Below are positions 5,126 to 18,070 of a DNA stretch of 64,000 bases, piece after piece. Every line of letters starts with the position of its first letter. Position 1 is the stretch's first letter. A program made the translations under genes and the position numbers. Origin of the DNA: Gammaproteobacteria bacterium (lineage in GTDB: Bacteria; Pseudomonadota; Gammaproteobacteria; SZUA-152); NCBI GenBank assembly GCA_029882975.1, contig JAOUJW010000006.1, positions 1 through 64,000 of the forward strand. The letters are read 5' to 3'. Under the pieces are notes generated by a model that was given only the letters and a program-made list of their open reading frames with translations, searched no databases and was not told the origin of the DNA.

Positions 5126-7999
5126 TTAAGAAAAGGCATCAGTTGTGCAGCCCCATTTCGTCAAGTGATCTTTGCACTCTTTAAGGAGATCTCCCCGGAG
5201 TGAGTTATTCGATGTTCTTTCTTGCAAAGAATATCTGTGACTACAAATAGCCGCATCCTGGTAGAAGCCATTAGCCAATGCATTTCTTAATGCGCTTGCG
5301 TAGGTTTTTCCTGCTTCAATTGGATTAGTCTGGCATGCTTCAATTTCTGCTTGTACTAGTTCGAATTTGTGTAAAAAGTTGCGGGGACACAGTTCTGCCC
5401 ATTGACGAAGCTGCTCTTGGTTTGTTTCCAGGGTTTTTTTATGATCTTCGAACTTTTCTTTCTCGTTTTTTATTAAGCCGGTAAGGATAAGTGAATGGTA
5501 GAAATTCAATTCTGAAATGGAGAACTGACCAACGGCGCCGATGCTTGCTGCTCGCGATCGTTCCACAAGATCCATGGCATGTGCGTAGTCCTGGCGAATT
5601 ACAGAAGTCATCATTCTGAGCAAAAAGTACCAGTGAATTCCGTGCAGGAACCCAACATTTTCCATTGAATTAAGAGTGGTGTTTTCACAAAAAGAATCGT
5701 CGGATAACGATAGACTATCATTGGTTGTCCCGTTCATGTTCTTAATAAACTGTCGTGTAAACCTTACCAGCAAAATAGCAGGGTTATTTGATTTTTCGAG
5801 AAAAGGTAAAGCTGAAGTGATTATGTCGTCTAGTTCTACTAAATTCATGCCGGAGTGAAAGCTTTGTAGAATTTGAGAAACGTTGCAGTACCCAGAGTTG
5901 ATCAGGTCCCCTGCGTTTAGTCCATCAACAGACGCCGTTTTTAGCTCATTTATACCAAGTTCAATGTAATTTACCCATGGGCTGATATTGGTGTAGTAGG
6001 TTAGTTTAATTTTGCAGCGTAAGGAAATATCGTTGAGCTTTTGATTGAGTTTTAATGCCAGAAGTGCATAGTCATTGGCTTTTCTGTAGTCTCCGTGGAT
6101 CGAACCTACGAGTACGCCGTACAAATCGAATGCATAAGCGGATTCTTTAGAAATTCCCGAGTCGAAAGACGTTCTAATCATTATTAATACGAGGTTTTGA
6201 ATCAGATCGGGTCTTAAGACATACACAGGAGAAACCATGCTGTTGCAGAGCGATATCAGTGAATCCACCAACGGATCGATATTTGATGGCAGCGTGAGAA
6301 TATGATCGATTGGTGTGGTGCTTAGGAGTTCGAGTGTTTTCGGTGTTTCGTCATCAGATTCCAGATCTATATTAAACAACTTCAGAGCTTCCATCCCTTC
6401 ATCAACGGCCTCTTTCCAATTGCTTTGATTTGTATATTGGATGATTTTAAGTTTGTGTACTTCGGCTCTTTCATATGTATTACCGGTTCTTTCAAGAATT
6501 ATGTGATAGAGCTCATGAGCTTCCTTGAATTTGCCGCAAAGATATTTACACTCGGCAAGTGTTTTGTAGATGCGGAAAGACAATTTGTGTTGACTCGTCC
6601 AGCTGTCAATGGGTAGTAGTTTTCTCGCTGTTTGTAAATATACAATTGCAGTGCTGTAAGAGCCTGTCGTTTTGGCCTGGATGGCGGCAGTAAAATTCAT
6701 ATTGCTTACGTTAATCGTTTCTTCCATGTTTGAGATCTGTTCGCAACCAATATTCATGTGATACAAAATAGTGGGTAACGTTTTTGGGTCTGAAGGGTAG
6801 GATTGGAGTTGCCGCCCAATTGCAAGATGCAAACCGGGTTTATCGTTGACCAGCTCGAAAATGGATTCTCTGATTTTGTCATGGGTAAACTGATAATGTC
6901 TGCAGCTATTGTTTTTCTGGATGAATATCAGTTCCAACTTGACCCCATCGGACAAAAGACTTTCGACTTCGGTGGTACTTAGCGAACTAATACGTGAGAT
7001 TAGTTCTGCACTAAACGTCGGTCCTATTGCTGAGGCGAGTTTAAGCACACGCTGGGTTTCCTTAGATAGTTTTTTAAATTTCAAGATGAGTATTTCGGCC
7101 AATTTGTCTGTTACGCCCAGTTGTTCAGGCTGTTTAAATGCGAGTGAAACGTTGGTCTCACTAAGTGTGCTCGATGTGGCTCCGTAACCGGTGGTTTCGA
7201 CCAGTTGCTTAATGTAGAGTGGATTTCCGTTTGCCTGCAGGCATACATATTGTTCCCATTCTTTAGAGAGGTTATTGCTATATTGACTTACTAAGGTTCT
7301 TGCCTCCAGTTCCGATAAAGGGTTCAAATCTACCCGTTGTAGAAGTGAATTTAATTTGGCGAGCTTTCGGGCTAAAGCAGATAAGGGGTGTGATATTCCC
7401 ACTTCGTCATTTCTGTAGCTGCCCACTATACAAATAGACTTGAATTCTTTATTTAAAACGACTGATTCGATCAGGTCTATAGCGTCGGCGTCAGCCCAAT
7501 GCAGGTCATCAAGAAAAAACACAAGTCGGTCGGATTTCTTAGTGATGAATGTTAACAATTTGTTAAATACCAGGTTGAAACGATTTTTCGATTCAAAAGA
7601 AGGCAAAGGTTGCGGGTGTGAATCTGTCTTTGTGAGTTGCTCAAAATCCGGAGCAAATTCATGCAAAATCTTTAAATTAGGTTGAAGCAGGTCGGTCAGT
7701 TCTTTGGACAGCTCAATTTGTTCCTTCTTGGATTTGAGTTTCAGGGACCTGGCGTAATGATTAATCGCGTCTATCAGGCCTTGCGAGGGGAGGTGATGAT
7801 TGTTGAACTTCCCGTAAAGGCATACATCACTGTCGAAGAAGTACTGACTGATAAATTGTGAAATGAGAGTGGTTTTTCCGATTCCAGGGTTACCCCCAAC
7901 TAATACTATTTTGGTGCCGTTTGTGTGGATATTGTCAAAAATATTGCGTAACTGAGCAAGGTGGCTCTGTCTCCCAACAAATGTAGTATTTGGTAACAT
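5126..7999 (-). CDS. STAND-type AAA ATPase with TPR-like C-terminal region
   Basis: The 957-aa protein opens with FVGRQSHL and a Walker A loop GGNPGIGKTT (residues 35-44). A Walker B FFLDDLHWAD follows at about 161-170, so the N-terminal third is an AAA_16/NB-ARC-like ATPase. The remaining ~550 residues are helical and TPR-like (YSTAIVYLQTARKLLP, KFKEAHELYHIILERTG). This pair of domains is the middle part of large Ser/Thr-kinase/ATPase/GAF/histidine-kinase sensors, but here no kinase or effector is attached. It is divergent from the hybrid histidine kinase at 8149 with 149 bp between starts, so a functional pair is likely. Role inferred: signal-regulated ATPase scaffold. Confidence 0.8.
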   Translation of the reverse strand: MLPNTTFVGRQSHLAQLRNIFDNIHTNGTKIVLVGGNPGIGKTTLISQFISQYFFDSDVCLYGKFNNHHLPSQGLIDAINHYARSLKLKSKKEQIELSKELTDLLQPNLKILHEFAPDFEQLTKTDSHPQPLPSFESKNRFNLVFNKLLTFITKKSDRLVFFLDDLHWADADAIDLIESVVLNKEFKSICIVGSYRNDEVGISHPLSALARKLAKLNSLLQRVDLNPLSELEARTLVSQYSNNLSKEWEQYVCLQANGNPLYIKQLVETTGYGATSSTLSETNVSLAFKQPEQLGVTDKLAEILILKFKKLSKETQRVLKLASAIGPTFSAELISRISSLSTTEVESLLSDGVKLELIFIQKNNSCRHYQFTHDKIRESIFELVNDKPGLHLAIGRQLQSYPSDPKTLPTILYHMNIGCEQISNMEETINVSNMNFTAAIQAKTTGSYSTAIVYLQTARKLLPIDSWTSQHKLSFRIYKTLAECKYLCGKFKEAHELYHIILERTGNTYERAEVHKLKIIQYTNQSNWKEAVDEGMEALKLFNIDLESDDETPKTLELLSTTPIDHILTLPSNIDPLVDSLISLCNSMVSPVYVLRPDLIQNLVLIMIRTSFDSGISKESAYAFDLYGVLVGSIHGDYRKANDYALLALKLNQKLNDISLRCKIKLTYYTNISPWVNYIELGINELKTASVDGLNAGDLINSGYCNVSQILQSFHSGMNLVELDDIITSALPFLEKSNNPAILLVRFTRQFIKNMNGTTNDSLSLSDDSFCENTTLNSMENVGFLHGIHWYFLLRMMTSVIRQDYAHAMDLVERSRAASIGAVGQFSISELNFYHSLILTGLIKNEKEKFEDHKKTLETNQEQLRQWAELCPRNFLHKFELVQAEIEACQTNPIEAGKTYASALRNALANGFYQDAAICSHRYSLQERTSNNSLRGDLLKECKDHLTKWGCTTDAFS

Positions 8000-10286: not shown

Positions 10287-11117
10287 ATGAGAAAAAAGCA
10301 TGGAGCAATACGCGGAATAACACTGAGTTGGGCATTGTTTGGCCTGGGGCTGTTAGCTGTTATTGCCCTGATACCGCCTGGGGTTCAGGCGGGAGATGTC
10401 TGGGTACCTGCCTACCAGGACGCCAAGGGCAAAACTGTCCCGGCCCATTACCTGTTTCGCAGTCATGCCAAGCAGTACGGGGGCTCTGCGTCCGGGCGAC
10501 CGGTGGATTCGCCCTTGTATTATCAAGTGACCTATATGTCCCCGAAATATAAAAATAATTCCCGCTATGTTCAATCACAATTACCTCGGGCTACGTTACC
10601 GGAGCACGCTCGGCGCGATGTTACCACTCAAGGTTGGCGCTGTACCTTGGGGTACGAGCAGAAAGACGAGCGTTGTAAGAAAATTCTCATTCCCGGAAAT
10701 GCCAAACTTAATGCAGCCAGGACCGGTTGGGAATGCCTGAGAGGGTTTCATAAGGCCCGGCAGGCCTGTGAATCGGTTTCCAAACCCAAAAATGCCTACT
10801 GGCAAAGAGATGGCATACGTTGGCAGTGCAAACCCGGGTACAGCCGAGAAGATAAAGACTGTCAGAAAATCCAAGTACCGCCTAATGCGCGGTTGGATTT
10901 GTTGGCTAACGACTGGTACTGCAACTTCGGTTACGTTCGTTCCGGCGGCCTCTGCGCCAAGGTGGAGTTACCCGCCAATGCTCATTACAACAGTTTTGGC
11001 ACTGGTTGGGCCTGTAATCTCGGGTTTTCCCGTCTGGAGCAGGGTTGTGTGCTGAGCCGGGAATTACCCCAGCCATTGGATTTGGCCGAAATTGAATGGG
11101 AATCATCCAGAAATTAA
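10287..11117 (+). CDS. Secreted Cys-repeat protein (five W-x-C-x2-G-Y/F repeats)
   Basis: The 276-aa protein has an N-terminal signal peptide (WALFGLGLLAVIALIPPGVQA). After a ~95-residue linker come five tandem ~31-residue repeats with the pattern W-x-C-x2-G-[YF]-x6-C, joined by IP-x-NA linkers (IPGNAKLNA, VPPNARLDL, LPANAHYNS). Each repeat should form one disulfide, giving a stiff exported rod. Similar repeats occur in gammaproteobacterial surface proteins of unknown role. The gene is monocistronic between the hybrid kinase and metZ. No ribosome-binding site stands out before the ATG. Confidence 0.75.
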   Translation: MRKKHGAIRGITLSWALFGLGLLAVIALIPPGVQAGDVWVPAYQDAKGKTVPAHYLFRSHAKQYGGSASGRPVDSPLYYQVTYMSPKYKNNSRYVQSQLPRATLPEHARRDVTTQGWRCTLGYEQKDERCKKILIPGNAKLNAARTGWECLRGFHKARQACESVSKPKNAYWQRDGIRWQCKPGYSREDKDCQKIQVPPNARLDLLANDWYCNFGYVRSGGLCAKVELPANAHYNSFGTGWACNLGFSRLEQGCVLSRELPQPLDLAEIEWESSRN

Positions 11118-11640
11118 TCCACGTTTCTTAAATGTCTTAGAAACGTAATTGCTTCGAATGTCTGATCGCGTGGAACATTGATTTTCAGCGTTCCACGGAT
11201 ATCGCCAAATCCTGTGGATAACTCTGTGTACAACTTATAGAACAATTGTTTTAAGAAGCGTTGAAACAACGATGTTGTTAGATTGTTTAAAAATTGACCT
11301 TGATTGTTGAAGGCCAAAAATACGACGCTAAGTCGATATTTTTTTGTCGTAAAACTGACTCCGTCGACTTAAAACCATTCTGAGATTTCGATTTTTGTAT
11401 TCAAAAAACTGGATAAACACAGGTTCTAAAGCATGCTAGTAAGTATATACAGTTGCTGAAAAATCATTTTTCTGTCTTAGACTCTGTCAAACGGAATCTT
11501 GTCACCTCAATATCCCGTGGCAGCAATTTTGGGTTTATCTTTGCCAAAGATAAGAATTTCCAATGATTTTATATGACAAAGCGCATTTTTAGTTGCTTGT
11601 GTATAACTTTTCCACCATTGCATTGACAAGGTGGGTGTTT
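11118..11640. promoter_or_regulatory. Long AT-rich intergenic region with DnaA-box-like sites, hairpins and the metZ promoter
   Basis: Two exact TTATNCACA-type sites occur as TGTGGATAA (11213-11221) and TGTGTATAA (11598-11606). Weaker relatives are TGTGTACAA (11225-11233) and CTGGATAAA (11409-11417). Two hairpins lie just after the upstream gene: ACGTTTCT/AGAAACGT (11121-11146) and CGTGGAAC/GTTCCACG (11169-11197). A TTGACA at 11623-11628 with TATAGT at 11644-11649 (15-bp spacer) is a likely promoter for the riboswitch transcript. Confidence 0.4.
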
Positions 11641-11659
11641 GTCTATAGTCTGCCGTCCT

Positions 11660-11712
11660 GAGCGCCGATTTGAACTTCAGCTTGCGGGCGCTTTATAAAT
11701 ACGGCTAAAGAG
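11660..11712 (+). promoter_or_regulatory. SAM-II riboswitch aptamer upstream of metZ
   Basis: The segment fits the SAM-II layout. The P1 stem AGCGCC (11661-11666) pairs with GGCGCT (11687-11692). Its loop contains the conserved GATTTG and GCTTGC. After an A-rich linker the 3' element GGCTAAAG (11703-11710) can form the pseudoknot with CTTCAGC (11675-11681). SAM-II aptamers sense S-adenosylmethionine and control methionine-biosynthesis genes. Here the downstream gene is metZ, which supports the call. The class is best known from Alphaproteobacteria. Confidence 0.9.
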
Positions 11713-11763
11713 AAAAACCTGCTTTAGCCTGAATTGTAAACAGAGCTGAAGGCGGGTTTTTTT
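11703..11763 (+). terminator. Expression platform: antiterminator versus intrinsic terminator for metZ
   Basis: GGCTAAAG (11703-11710), the pseudoknot strand of the aptamer, is also a perfect complement of CTTTAGCC (11722-11729). That same CTTTAGC forms the left arm of a terminator hairpin (11716-11728 with 11745-11758) followed by seven T (11757-11763). With SAM bound, the pseudoknot would occupy GGCTAAAG and free the terminator; without SAM the antiterminator would form. The mechanism is inferred from the mutually exclusive pairings. Confidence 0.8.
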
Positions 11764-11798
11764 GTGCCTGCTGAACGCCCCTAGGCACGAGGTACGAA

Positions 11799-14713: not shown

Positions 14714-17700
14714 TCAAACTAAAACAGTATCGCCGTTTCGAATGGCATTACGCAACGCATCAGCAATGAGCCAGTCCTTGGTGTCAAAGCCCTCGGTGTA
14801 GTGGCTCATCACCCGATCCAAACTGGGTAGGGCCTTTTCTTTTTGATTCTGTCCACACCAGACCCTGGAAGCGGTAATAACGGCGCGTAATTCCAGACTG
14901 GTGGCCTGTTGAGTGCGTGCAGTTTCAATGGCCAAGTCCAATTGCTGTAAGGCTTTATCCGTGTTTTCGCGGCCCATGCCTAATAGGGCTTCCGCTTTAA
15001 TACGATACAGTTCCGCCTCAAAGAAGCGCTCGTTTTTGCTGTCCATGAAGTCAATGGTGTTGTCGATGATATCGTAGGCTTGTTGGTAGCGTTCCATCAA
15101 GCAATAAGACTGAGCCAGAAGGCTGTGAAAATAAGTAAGTGCCAGACTGCTTCCCGTGGCTTTATATTGCTGTAAGGTTTTTTCGTAACCTTGAATGTAC
15201 TGAAAGTCTTGTAGTATCACCATCATAGCCTGGGACAGCATCATATTACCGACTGTTTTCCAGTAGCCGAATTCATAAGTGTCAGAAACTTCGATAATTT
15301 TTTCCGCCTCTTGTTTTACCCCCAGTTGGTCGCCGGATAGCTGGTGTACAAAAGCACAAAAGGCATGGGCATAGGCACAGCTGAAGGGGTGGGACAATTC
15401 ATGGGCCAGGTCCACAGCTTGCTGGGCTCGTTCCAAGGCCTGAGCGGGAAACCCCTGTAACCAGAGTACGCAGGAGCCGTTGGCCAGATTAGCCACTTCC
15501 GTATCGTGGCTGAAGGTTTGGGTGGAAATACGTCGTTGGTGTTGGGTTTTAAAACCGGCTTTAAGATATTGATACGCCTCGCTTAACTGGCCACGCCAAA
15601 ATAAGGTGCCGCCCATGGAACGTTGTGCTTCCATCGAGAAGGTGTGATCGGTGGTGGATTTGGCAATATTGTATTGCTGTGAAGCCAGTTTTTGCGCTGT
15701 ATCAAATTCGGCCCGCACCACGTAGTATTCCCACAGACCACAAAGAACCGGAAAGATAGAGCTGGTTTCACCAAAATTGCGGCACAAAGCGTAGGCTCGG
15801 GCATACGCTTTTTCCACTTCTGGAGCGGCATAGCCGTAGGACAGCATATAGGCTAAACCTAAAGATGCTTGTATGCTCAGTTCGTATTCAAAGCCGGCTT
15901 TGGATTCCGGTAAGTGTTTCAACGCATCCAATGCCCGGCTCAAGTGAACAATGGCGTCGGTGTTGGCCGAGCGACCGATAGCCGTCTTGCCGGCTTGGAG
16001 CCAATATTTTGTCGCTTCCTGGTAATCTCCGGCTTCGGTACAGTGGTGGGCCACCAATTCCGGATTTTCTTCTACGATTTCAGGAAAATGTTCAAATAAG
16101 GTCAAGGCAATCAGGTGGTGGTATTTTTGCCGGGTTTTTTTCAATAAGGATTGGTAGGCCAGTTCATGCACCAGAGCATGACGGAAAGTGTATTGGGCCT
16201 GGGGTGGCAGACCTTTTTGATACAATACTTCTGAGTACACCAGATGGGCCAGCCGATTTTCAAAGCGAACCTCTTTCTTCGGTGCCACGGCTTTGAGTAA
16301 TGAATAGCTGAACTCGCGTCCCAAGGTGGCACTGAGTTGCGCCAGTTCTTTATTTGGACCCAACCGGTCCAGGCGTGCCATGAGAGAATCTTGTAGTGTA
16401 GACGGAATGGCAAGGCTGTCCAGAGGCGAGGCCAGTTTGAAATGGTCTTCTGCTTCCAGAACCAAATTGGATTCCAATACCATTTTGGTGAGCTCTTCTA
16501 CAAACAGTGGTGTGCCATCGGTTTTGTTAATAATTTCCGTCACCAGTTCGGGGGGGAGGCTTTTATCTTTGGCAATCCATTTAATCATGGCGGCTGTTTG
16601 TTCCCGCGTTAGACGGTTGACCGAAATCTGAGTCATATGTGAGCGAGTAATCCAGGGTGCCGAAAATTCCATACGAAAAGTCAGTAGTAAAAAGATCTTA
16701 GCTGTGGGAGTTTGGTCGATAAATAGACTGAGTAGATCCAAGGTAGTGGGGTCAACCCAGTGCAGGTCTTCCACAATGATCACTACGGTTTTCTTTTCCG
16801 ACATGGCCATACCTAAGGCCAGTAGATTTTCCAGCGTTTTTTGTTTCTTCTGTACGGGGGCCAGTTGCAATGGTTCATAGCGGTCCTCCGGAAGCGAGAT
16901 GGACAGCAATTCGGCCAGCAAGGGTACCGCTTGTGTTAAGTCCAGTCCGTGTTGTTCCAGGAAACTTTCCAGTTCCAACAATTTTTCTTCCGGTTTGCTT
17001 TTGCTGCCAAACTCCAAATGTTCCCGGAACAGTTGGGAGGCGCAATGCAAGTAACTGTTTTGATAATAGGCTGAACCCGCACTTTCAAAAAAATAGTGGG
17101 TTTCGTCCTTGATTTTATCACGCAGTAGTTGGGCCAGGCGTGATTTACCAATACCTGCCTCGCCACTGAGTAAAACTACTTGACCGGAACCGTTGTTGGC
17201 TTGACTAAATCGGTCCAGCAGTAGAGCGGATTCTTGTTCTCTGCCGATTAAGGGCGTTTGGCCGCGAGAGCCGGGGCTGAGGATTTGTTGGTAGCTTTCG
17301 AACTCCCGCAGAACCCGGTATAAGGTAAAAGGACGGGAGAAGCCTTTTAGATGGTGCTCGCCCAGGGAACTGCAATCGTAATAATTGTTCACCAGTCGGT
17401 AGGTATCGGCACTGATGACGATTCCATTGGGTTTGGCCAGATCCTGCAGTCGGGCAGCAATGTTGGGGGTTTGGCCCAGGGCCAAGGAACGTTTATCACC
17501 ATCGCCAATTTCACCCACGACCACCAGGCCTGTGTGGATACCCACGCGTATGGATAGATTGATACCCATGGATTGTTGCAGGCGAATGTTCAGATGGACC
17601 ATGGCTTTTATGAGTTCCAGCCCGGTCTGCACGGCCCTGGATGCGTCATTTTCGTGGGCGTGTGGGAAACCGAAATAGGTGAGGATACCGTCACCCAGGT

Positions 17701-18070
17701 ATTGGGCCACATGACCTTTGAAACGGTGAATGACTTCATCACAAGTGTGGCGATAGTCACGCATAATGTCTCGCAAATCTTCCGGGTCGGTTTTTTCCGA
17801 TAATGTGCTGGAGCCCACCAAATCGCAAAACAATACGGTTAACTGGCGTCGTTCTGCGCCTTGATTGTCTGATGACTCTTGGGAGACTTCAGGGATTTTG
17901 ATTTCAGAATGTTGTGAGTCTAAGGGTTCGGCACAGTAGCCGCAAAACTTAAAGTTTCCGGGATTGTCGGCTTTACATTTGGGGCAACTGGCCATGAGCG
18001 AAGTGCCGCATTGACCGCAAAATTTCATATCGGTGGGCGACTTGAAGCCGCATTGCTTACATTGCATCAA
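14714..18070 (-). CDS. Zinc-ribbon class III adenylate cyclase with AAA ATPase and TPR region
   Basis: The 1118-aa protein starts with two zinc ribbons (CKQCG...CGQCG, CPKCK...CGYC; residues 4-46). A class III nucleotide cyclase domain follows (~72-240) with both metal Asp residues (D83 in LFCDLVGSS, D127 in YLGDGIL) and the transition-state pair N203/R207 in NIAARLQD, so it looks active. An AAA_16 ATPase with Walker A SGEAGIGKS (302-310) comes next, then ~500 residues of TPR-like helices. This architecture is common in bacteria as a cytosolic sensor making cAMP. It is downstream of pgaCD on the same strand, separated by a hairpin. Confidence 0.9.
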   Translation of the reverse strand: MMQCKQCGFKSPTDMKFCGQCGTSLMASCPKCKADNPGNFKFCGYCAEPLDSQHSEIKIPEVSQESSDNQGAERRQLTVLFCDLVGSSTLSEKTDPEDLRDIMRDYRHTCDEVIHRFKGHVAQYLGDGILTYFGFPHAHENDASRAVQTGLELIKAMVHLNIRLQQSMGINLSIRVGIHTGLVVVGEIGDGDKRSLALGQTPNIAARLQDLAKPNGIVISADTYRLVNNYYDCSSLGEHHLKGFSRPFTLYRVLREFESYQQILSPGSRGQTPLIGREQESALLLDRFSQANNGSGQVVLLSGEAGIGKSRLAQLLRDKIKDETHYFFESAGSAYYQNSYLHCASQLFREHLEFGSKSKPEEKLLELESFLEQHGLDLTQAVPLLAELLSISLPEDRYEPLQLAPVQKKQKTLENLLALGMAMSEKKTVVIIVEDLHWVDPTTLDLLSLFIDQTPTAKIFLLLTFRMEFSAPWITRSHMTQISVNRLTREQTAAMIKWIAKDKSLPPELVTEIINKTDGTPLFVEELTKMVLESNLVLEAEDHFKLASPLDSLAIPSTLQDSLMARLDRLGPNKELAQLSATLGREFSYSLLKAVAPKKEVRFENRLAHLVYSEVLYQKGLPPQAQYTFRHALVHELAYQSLLKKTRQKYHHLIALTLFEHFPEIVEENPELVAHHCTEAGDYQEATKYWLQAGKTAIGRSANTDAIVHLSRALDALKHLPESKAGFEYELSIQASLGLAYMLSYGYAAPEVEKAYARAYALCRNFGETSSIFPVLCGLWEYYVVRAEFDTAQKLASQQYNIAKSTTDHTFSMEAQRSMGGTLFWRGQLSEAYQYLKAGFKTQHQRRISTQTFSHDTEVANLANGSCVLWLQGFPAQALERAQQAVDLAHELSHPFSCAYAHAFCAFVHQLSGDQLGVKQEAEKIIEVSDTYEFGYWKTVGNMMLSQAMMVILQDFQYIQGYEKTLQQYKATGSSLALTYFHSLLAQSYCLMERYQQAYDIIDNTIDFMDSKNERFFEAELYRIKAEALLGMGRENTDKALQQLDLAIETARTQQATSLELRAVITASRVWCGQNQKEKALPSLDRVMSHYTEGFDTKDWLIADALRNAIRNGDTVLV

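Follow-up and report, generated by a model that had tools for sequence, protein, structure and literature searches.

A probable SAM-II riboswitch with a terminator platform upstream of metZ in a gammaproteobacterium, and its relatives in Beta- and Gammaproteobacteria

The window, the whole 64,000-nucleotide stretch of DNA analyzed here, contains metZ preceded by a leader with a sigma-70-like promoter, the elements of a SAM-II aptamer, and an intrinsic terminator that overlaps an alternative hairpin (Table 1). Helix P1, the two loop elements and the pseudoknot strand, together with the antiterminator and the terminator, can all be read in the sequence upstream of metZ, where the first-pass annotation had placed them. 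Elsewhere in the window, two large proteins encoded on the reverse strand resemble the TOMM-system kinase/cyclase fusion TIGR03903, both below its curated cut-off of 706 bits. One (14714-18070, 610 bits) begins with zinc-ribbon-like CxxC motifs; the other lies at 5126-7999 (90 bits). A cysteine-rich repeat protein of 276 residues is encoded on the forward strand at 10287-11117, and its only Pfam match, to the Plasmodium MSP1 EGF domain (33.7 bits versus 27), is probably misleading.

Table 1. Features of the metZ leader and gene, in positions of the window
Feature	Positions	Strand	Basis and remarks
Sigma-70-like promoter	11623-11651	+	TTGACA 11623-11628, 17 nt, TAGTCT 11646-11651
Alternative second hexamer TATAGT	11644-11649	+	15-nt spacer after TTGACA
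P1 5′ strand AGCGCC	11661-11666	+	Sequence; pairs with GGCGCT, 6 bp
L1 element GATTTG	11667-11672	+	Near-invariant in alignment A1; expected third strand of the SAM-binding triplex
GCTTGC, 5′ strand of pseudoknot helix P2	11680-11685	+	Near-invariant in A1
P1 3′ strand GGCGCT	11687-11692	+	Sequence
Antiterminator 5′ strand GGCTAAAG	11703-11710	+	Perfect 8-bp complement of CTTTAGCC
GCTAAAG, P2 3′ strand	11704-11710	+	GCTAAA invariant in A1; with G11703 also the antiterminator 5′ strand
Intrinsic terminator	11712-11763	+	Stem about 11717-11731/11741-11757, two bulges, T7 11757-11763
CTTTAGCC, antiterminator 3′ strand and part of terminator 5′ arm	11722-11729	+	Complementarity
GAGG, probable metZ ribosome-binding site	11789-11792	+	Sequence; about 26 nt past the terminator, outside terminator and aptamer
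metZ, O-succinylhomoserine sulfhydrylase, 398 aa	11799-12995	+	NF006003 698 bits (cut-off 522); TIGR01325 577 bits (cut-off 510)

The Rfam covariance model RF00521 (SAM_alpha/SAM-II) matched positions 11652-11729 of the forward strand over model positions 1-79 with 31.2 bits. The E value was 2.3e-5 against 4227 Rfam families and 7.2e-5 in the whole 5.18-Mb genome, where the second-best site reached 17.1 bits. The first-pass annotation had proposed this search and had named a score below threshold as grounds for refutation; taken to the letter, that is the result, the gathering cut-off being 36 bits, although the match is full length and has the E values given. A search at the gathering threshold returned no Rfam match within the 64-kb window, and an E-value search was needed for SAM-II to be seen. 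The further RF00521 matches in the genome (17 bits or less) were dismissed as noise, control genomes giving the same level. Weak matches in the window to mir-2797, CRISPR-DR64 and OrzO-P were likewise discarded, the first and last of these merely reflecting the inverted repeat of the terminator. The RF01826 (SAM-V) model found nothing in the window at E values up to 10. Because the same leader recurs across relatives, as described below, the comparative evidence overrides the sub-threshold score: judged by its sequence, the segment is a SAM-II aptamer, and its low score indicates a limit of the Rfam model and not a false match. The identity claimed in the first-pass annotation thus has the support of the covariance model, of comparison with relatives, of folding and of gene context.

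The three sequences of the SAM site, GATTTG, GCTTGC and GCTAAAG, are all exact in the window and match the SAM-II consensus. The triplex role of GATTTG is taken from the structures of SAM-II and SAM-V (PMC6061858, PMC5352136). GCTTGC and GCTAAAG are complementary around an unpaired U, and the near-invariance of both strands makes P2 untestable by covariation. P1 does covary: among 95 distinct relatives, three of its six pairs were changed on both sides, with 41 such cells against 14.4 in shuffled data, and sliding the partner strand abolished the signal. The element resembles the SAM-II family of RF00521 (the "metA motif") in P1, the three core sequences, spacing, association with methionine genes and frequent terminator. 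It differs in that the P1 core GCGCC/GGCGC is nearly fixed in the group of relatives and in having little or none of the 3′ extension that P2 shows in the Rfam consensus (GGCC/GGCC). This extension has 3 bp in the window versus 6 bp in the consensus, and helices of at least 4 bp between linker and tail occur in 26 of 75 leaders compared with about 14% of shuffled ones, so it is weak at most in the group. A long P2 3′ extension is also absent in SAM-V, which shares the pseudoknot fold and SAM site but is translational.

Some relatives depart from this layout. In five loci (L106, L188, L189, L187 and L075, of which L106 and L075 are from Methylophilales), inserts of about 10-30 nt, often of the form GAG...CTC, separate GATTTG from GCTTGC, at the site where SAM-V has extra pairing. 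Several elements of the order that holds Sideroxydans (L191-L202) carry an additional G+C-rich hairpin directly after the 3′ strand of P1.

The same leader is widespread. RF00521 matched in 19 of 23 genomes of the same family, and the loci checked all lie upstream of metZ. Of the four genomes of the family that gave no match, two (G006 and G011) lack a metZ match as well, a third (G004) has metZ and no element, and the leader of the fourth (G016) contains a run of N. Among the 80 contigs whose metZ is closest to that of the window, 36 carry the element, including those of Ectothiorhodospira, Leucothrix and Sinimarinibacterium and of the betaproteobacteria Gallionella, Sideroxydans, Methylobacillus and Methylotenera. 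A covariance model built from the beta/gamma group of leaders (R1) recovered the element from 179 of the 369 class genomes sampled and from 106 of 150 in the Sideroxydans order. One genome of the class (G276) has ten matches to the group model, compared with one or two in most others. The first-pass annotation had singled out SAM-II with a terminator beside gammaproteobacterial genes as noteworthy. The idea that this is unusual finds no support: most of the family and roughly one in two sampled genomes of the class have the element, and a 2007 paper had already reported SAM-II from beta- and gammaproteobacteria, often together with terminators (PMC2258182). Since the leader is common to family, class and the Sideroxydans order, SAM-II at this locus is no stray alphaproteobacterial piece, and finding it in a gammaproteobacterium is nothing unusual.

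That the leader might be a chance resemblance or a decayed, functionless relic is suggested by its score under the Rfam cut-off. This is scarcely credible and strongly disfavored by the conservation: promoter, aptamer and platform are all retained beside metZ genes only 60-75% identical, no core base has been lost in the window, and R1, although its training set included the window copy, gives that copy 76.1 bits.

The gene downstream of the element is metZ in 44 of 67 loci; the others identified with NCBIfam are metX, metK, metF and metH. These are the genes that a SAM sensor should control, and the context therefore fits SAM feedback. Across 80 loci, no association was found between the element and detachment of metZ from purF. 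In several riboswitch classes, the ligand differs through small changes in the core. An aptamer with the same SAM-II architecture upstream of metZ might on that ground sense another ligand, for example SAH, but this is most unlikely. The sequences expected to contact SAM are those of the SAM-II consensus and hardly vary in relatives, and the target genes are as expected for SAM feedback. SAH riboswitches moreover form a separate family; none was found in the genome, in a search that matched in no control either. The window aptamer would most likely bind SAM.

Immediately upstream of P1, a promoter-like pair of the form TTGAC-N14-20-TAnnnT is present in 46 of 57 leaders versus 0.4% of shuffled sequences, and in the window transcription is predicted to start near 11657. 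Downstream, as the first-pass annotation had noticed, the pseudoknot strand is the perfect partner of a segment that is itself in the left arm of the terminator, the pairing comprising 8 bp (11703-11710:11722-11729). Folding energies are -10.8 kcal/mol for the antiterminator (11703-11729; z -4.0) and -22.3 kcal/mol for the terminator (z -5.2), and in neither case was any of 200 shuffles as good. When the growing chain is folded step by step, the best structure is P1 plus antiterminator for chain ends at about 11732-11748 and P1 plus terminator from 11760; these energies take no account of pseudoknot or ligand. Plain promoter and terminator scans listed neither element, owing to the weak second hexamer and the bulges in the terminator stem.

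Both halves of the platform recur among 113 non-redundant leaders: 65 have a 7-bp complement of GCTAAAG farther downstream (3.1% of shuffled) and 106 have a terminator (9.5% of shuffled). About one-third of relatives have no downstream complement to GCTAAAG of at least 6 bp, and the antiterminator is thus not universal. In the window, the antiterminator and terminator are mutually exclusive and share a strand with the aptamer, the arrangement by which a transcription-attenuation riboswitch is recognized.

The aptamer could instead exert its effect chiefly through translation or mRNA stability, with a constitutive terminator behind it. Precedents exist in Sinorhizobium meliloti: the translation-controlling SAM-II of metA is followed by a terminator for which no response to the riboswitch is predicted, and effects of SAM-II on mRNA stability are described as well (PMC9373788). 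For the window such a mode of action is improbable, if somewhat less so than a change of ligand. The ribosome-binding site of metZ belongs to neither structure, and the terminator arm is perfectly complementary to the aptamer's own strand, a pairing conserved in most relatives. Control at the level of transcription termination finds a parallel in the same organism: S. meliloti metZ is preceded by a transcription-terminating SAM-II, whose terminator is predicted to fold once SAM is bound, and this riboswitch yields an sRNA of about 100 nt (PMC9373788), compared with about 107 nt predicted for the terminated RNA here. The two leaders are likened by description, and the S. meliloti host is alphaproteobacterial.

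Taken as a whole, the element is very likely a SAM-II riboswitch that switches metZ off by early termination of transcription when SAM is plentiful. RNA polymerase would start a few bases upstream of P1. Without SAM, GGCUAAAG (11703-11710) would pair with CUUUAGCC (11722-11729), and the resulting antiterminator would leave metZ on. The window RNA is expected to bind SAM and to form the pseudoknot, so that GCUAAAG would be engaged with GCUUGC and GAUUUG in the P2 pseudoknot/triplex, as in the SAM-II and SAM-V crystal structures (PMC6061858, PMC5352136). The freed CUUUAGCC would join the 5′ arm of the terminator, transcription would stop at the U tract at about 11757-11763, and metZ would be off.

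In some genomes, a second SAM-II-like element lies 100-170 nt past the first (L203:743-804, L204:1480-1541, L138:1387-1447, L205:646-707; also L209-L211). Its core in most copies reads GATTTAA..ACTTGC..GCTAAAGCGTC, and a search with an exact pattern recovered the element from 5 of the 300 genomes covered in the Sideroxydans order. The L203 copy comes with a promoter-like sequence of its own, and behind it stand a small ORF and, next, a MATE transporter instead of methionine genes. This element is possibly a separate variant.

In a survey based on Rfam profiles, Leyn et al. (2014) recorded SAM_alpha only in Rhizobiales and Rhodobacterales (PMC4239095). This restriction arises because the beta/gamma aptamers mostly fall under the Rfam cut-off: relatives exceed the gathering score in only 5 of 57 genomes and, in the Sideroxydans order, at 7 of 20 loci (13 below), likely because of the weak P2 3′ extension. 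The same study described a new betaproteobacterial element, metXZ, upstream of metX and metZ, for which no ligand was given. The metXZ element has two alternative folds, a pseudoknot of conserved regions and a downstream terminator, and precedes metZ in Methylophilales (PMC4239095). In the present analysis, a SAM-II element was found upstream of metZ in two Methylophilales genomes, Methylobacillus (L106) and Methylotenera (L075), and upstream of metX in a Sideroxydans genome (G060, L120). These positions suggest that metXZ is the SAM-II group. The genes, the pseudoknot, the alternative folds and the terminator agree, metXZ being compared through its published description; a literature search found no paper that equates the two.

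The presence of SAM-II in beta- and gammaproteobacteria, its association with terminators and its position upstream of metZ are already known. Slightly beyond the published record are the mostly sub-threshold scores of the beta/gamma aptamers, their weak P2 3′ extension and the identity of metXZ, which is very probably SAM-II. These aptamers probably constitute a distinct and widespread beta/gamma subtype of SAM-II on metZ, metX, metK, metF and metH, mostly missed by Rfam and described before as metXZ; its proposed traits are a fixed GCGCC P1, a short linker, a weak P2 3′ extension and a terminator platform.

For the organism, the proposed riboswitch would account for the switching-off of metZ by SAM. 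Beyond this locus, the element is carried by about one in two sampled genomes of the class and by most of one order, while at the default Rfam threshold the window copy and 13 of 20 relatives go undetected. With an improved SAM-II model, methionine regulation would be annotated better in many genomes, and the orphan metXZ element, if it is SAM-II, would gain a directly testable ligand.
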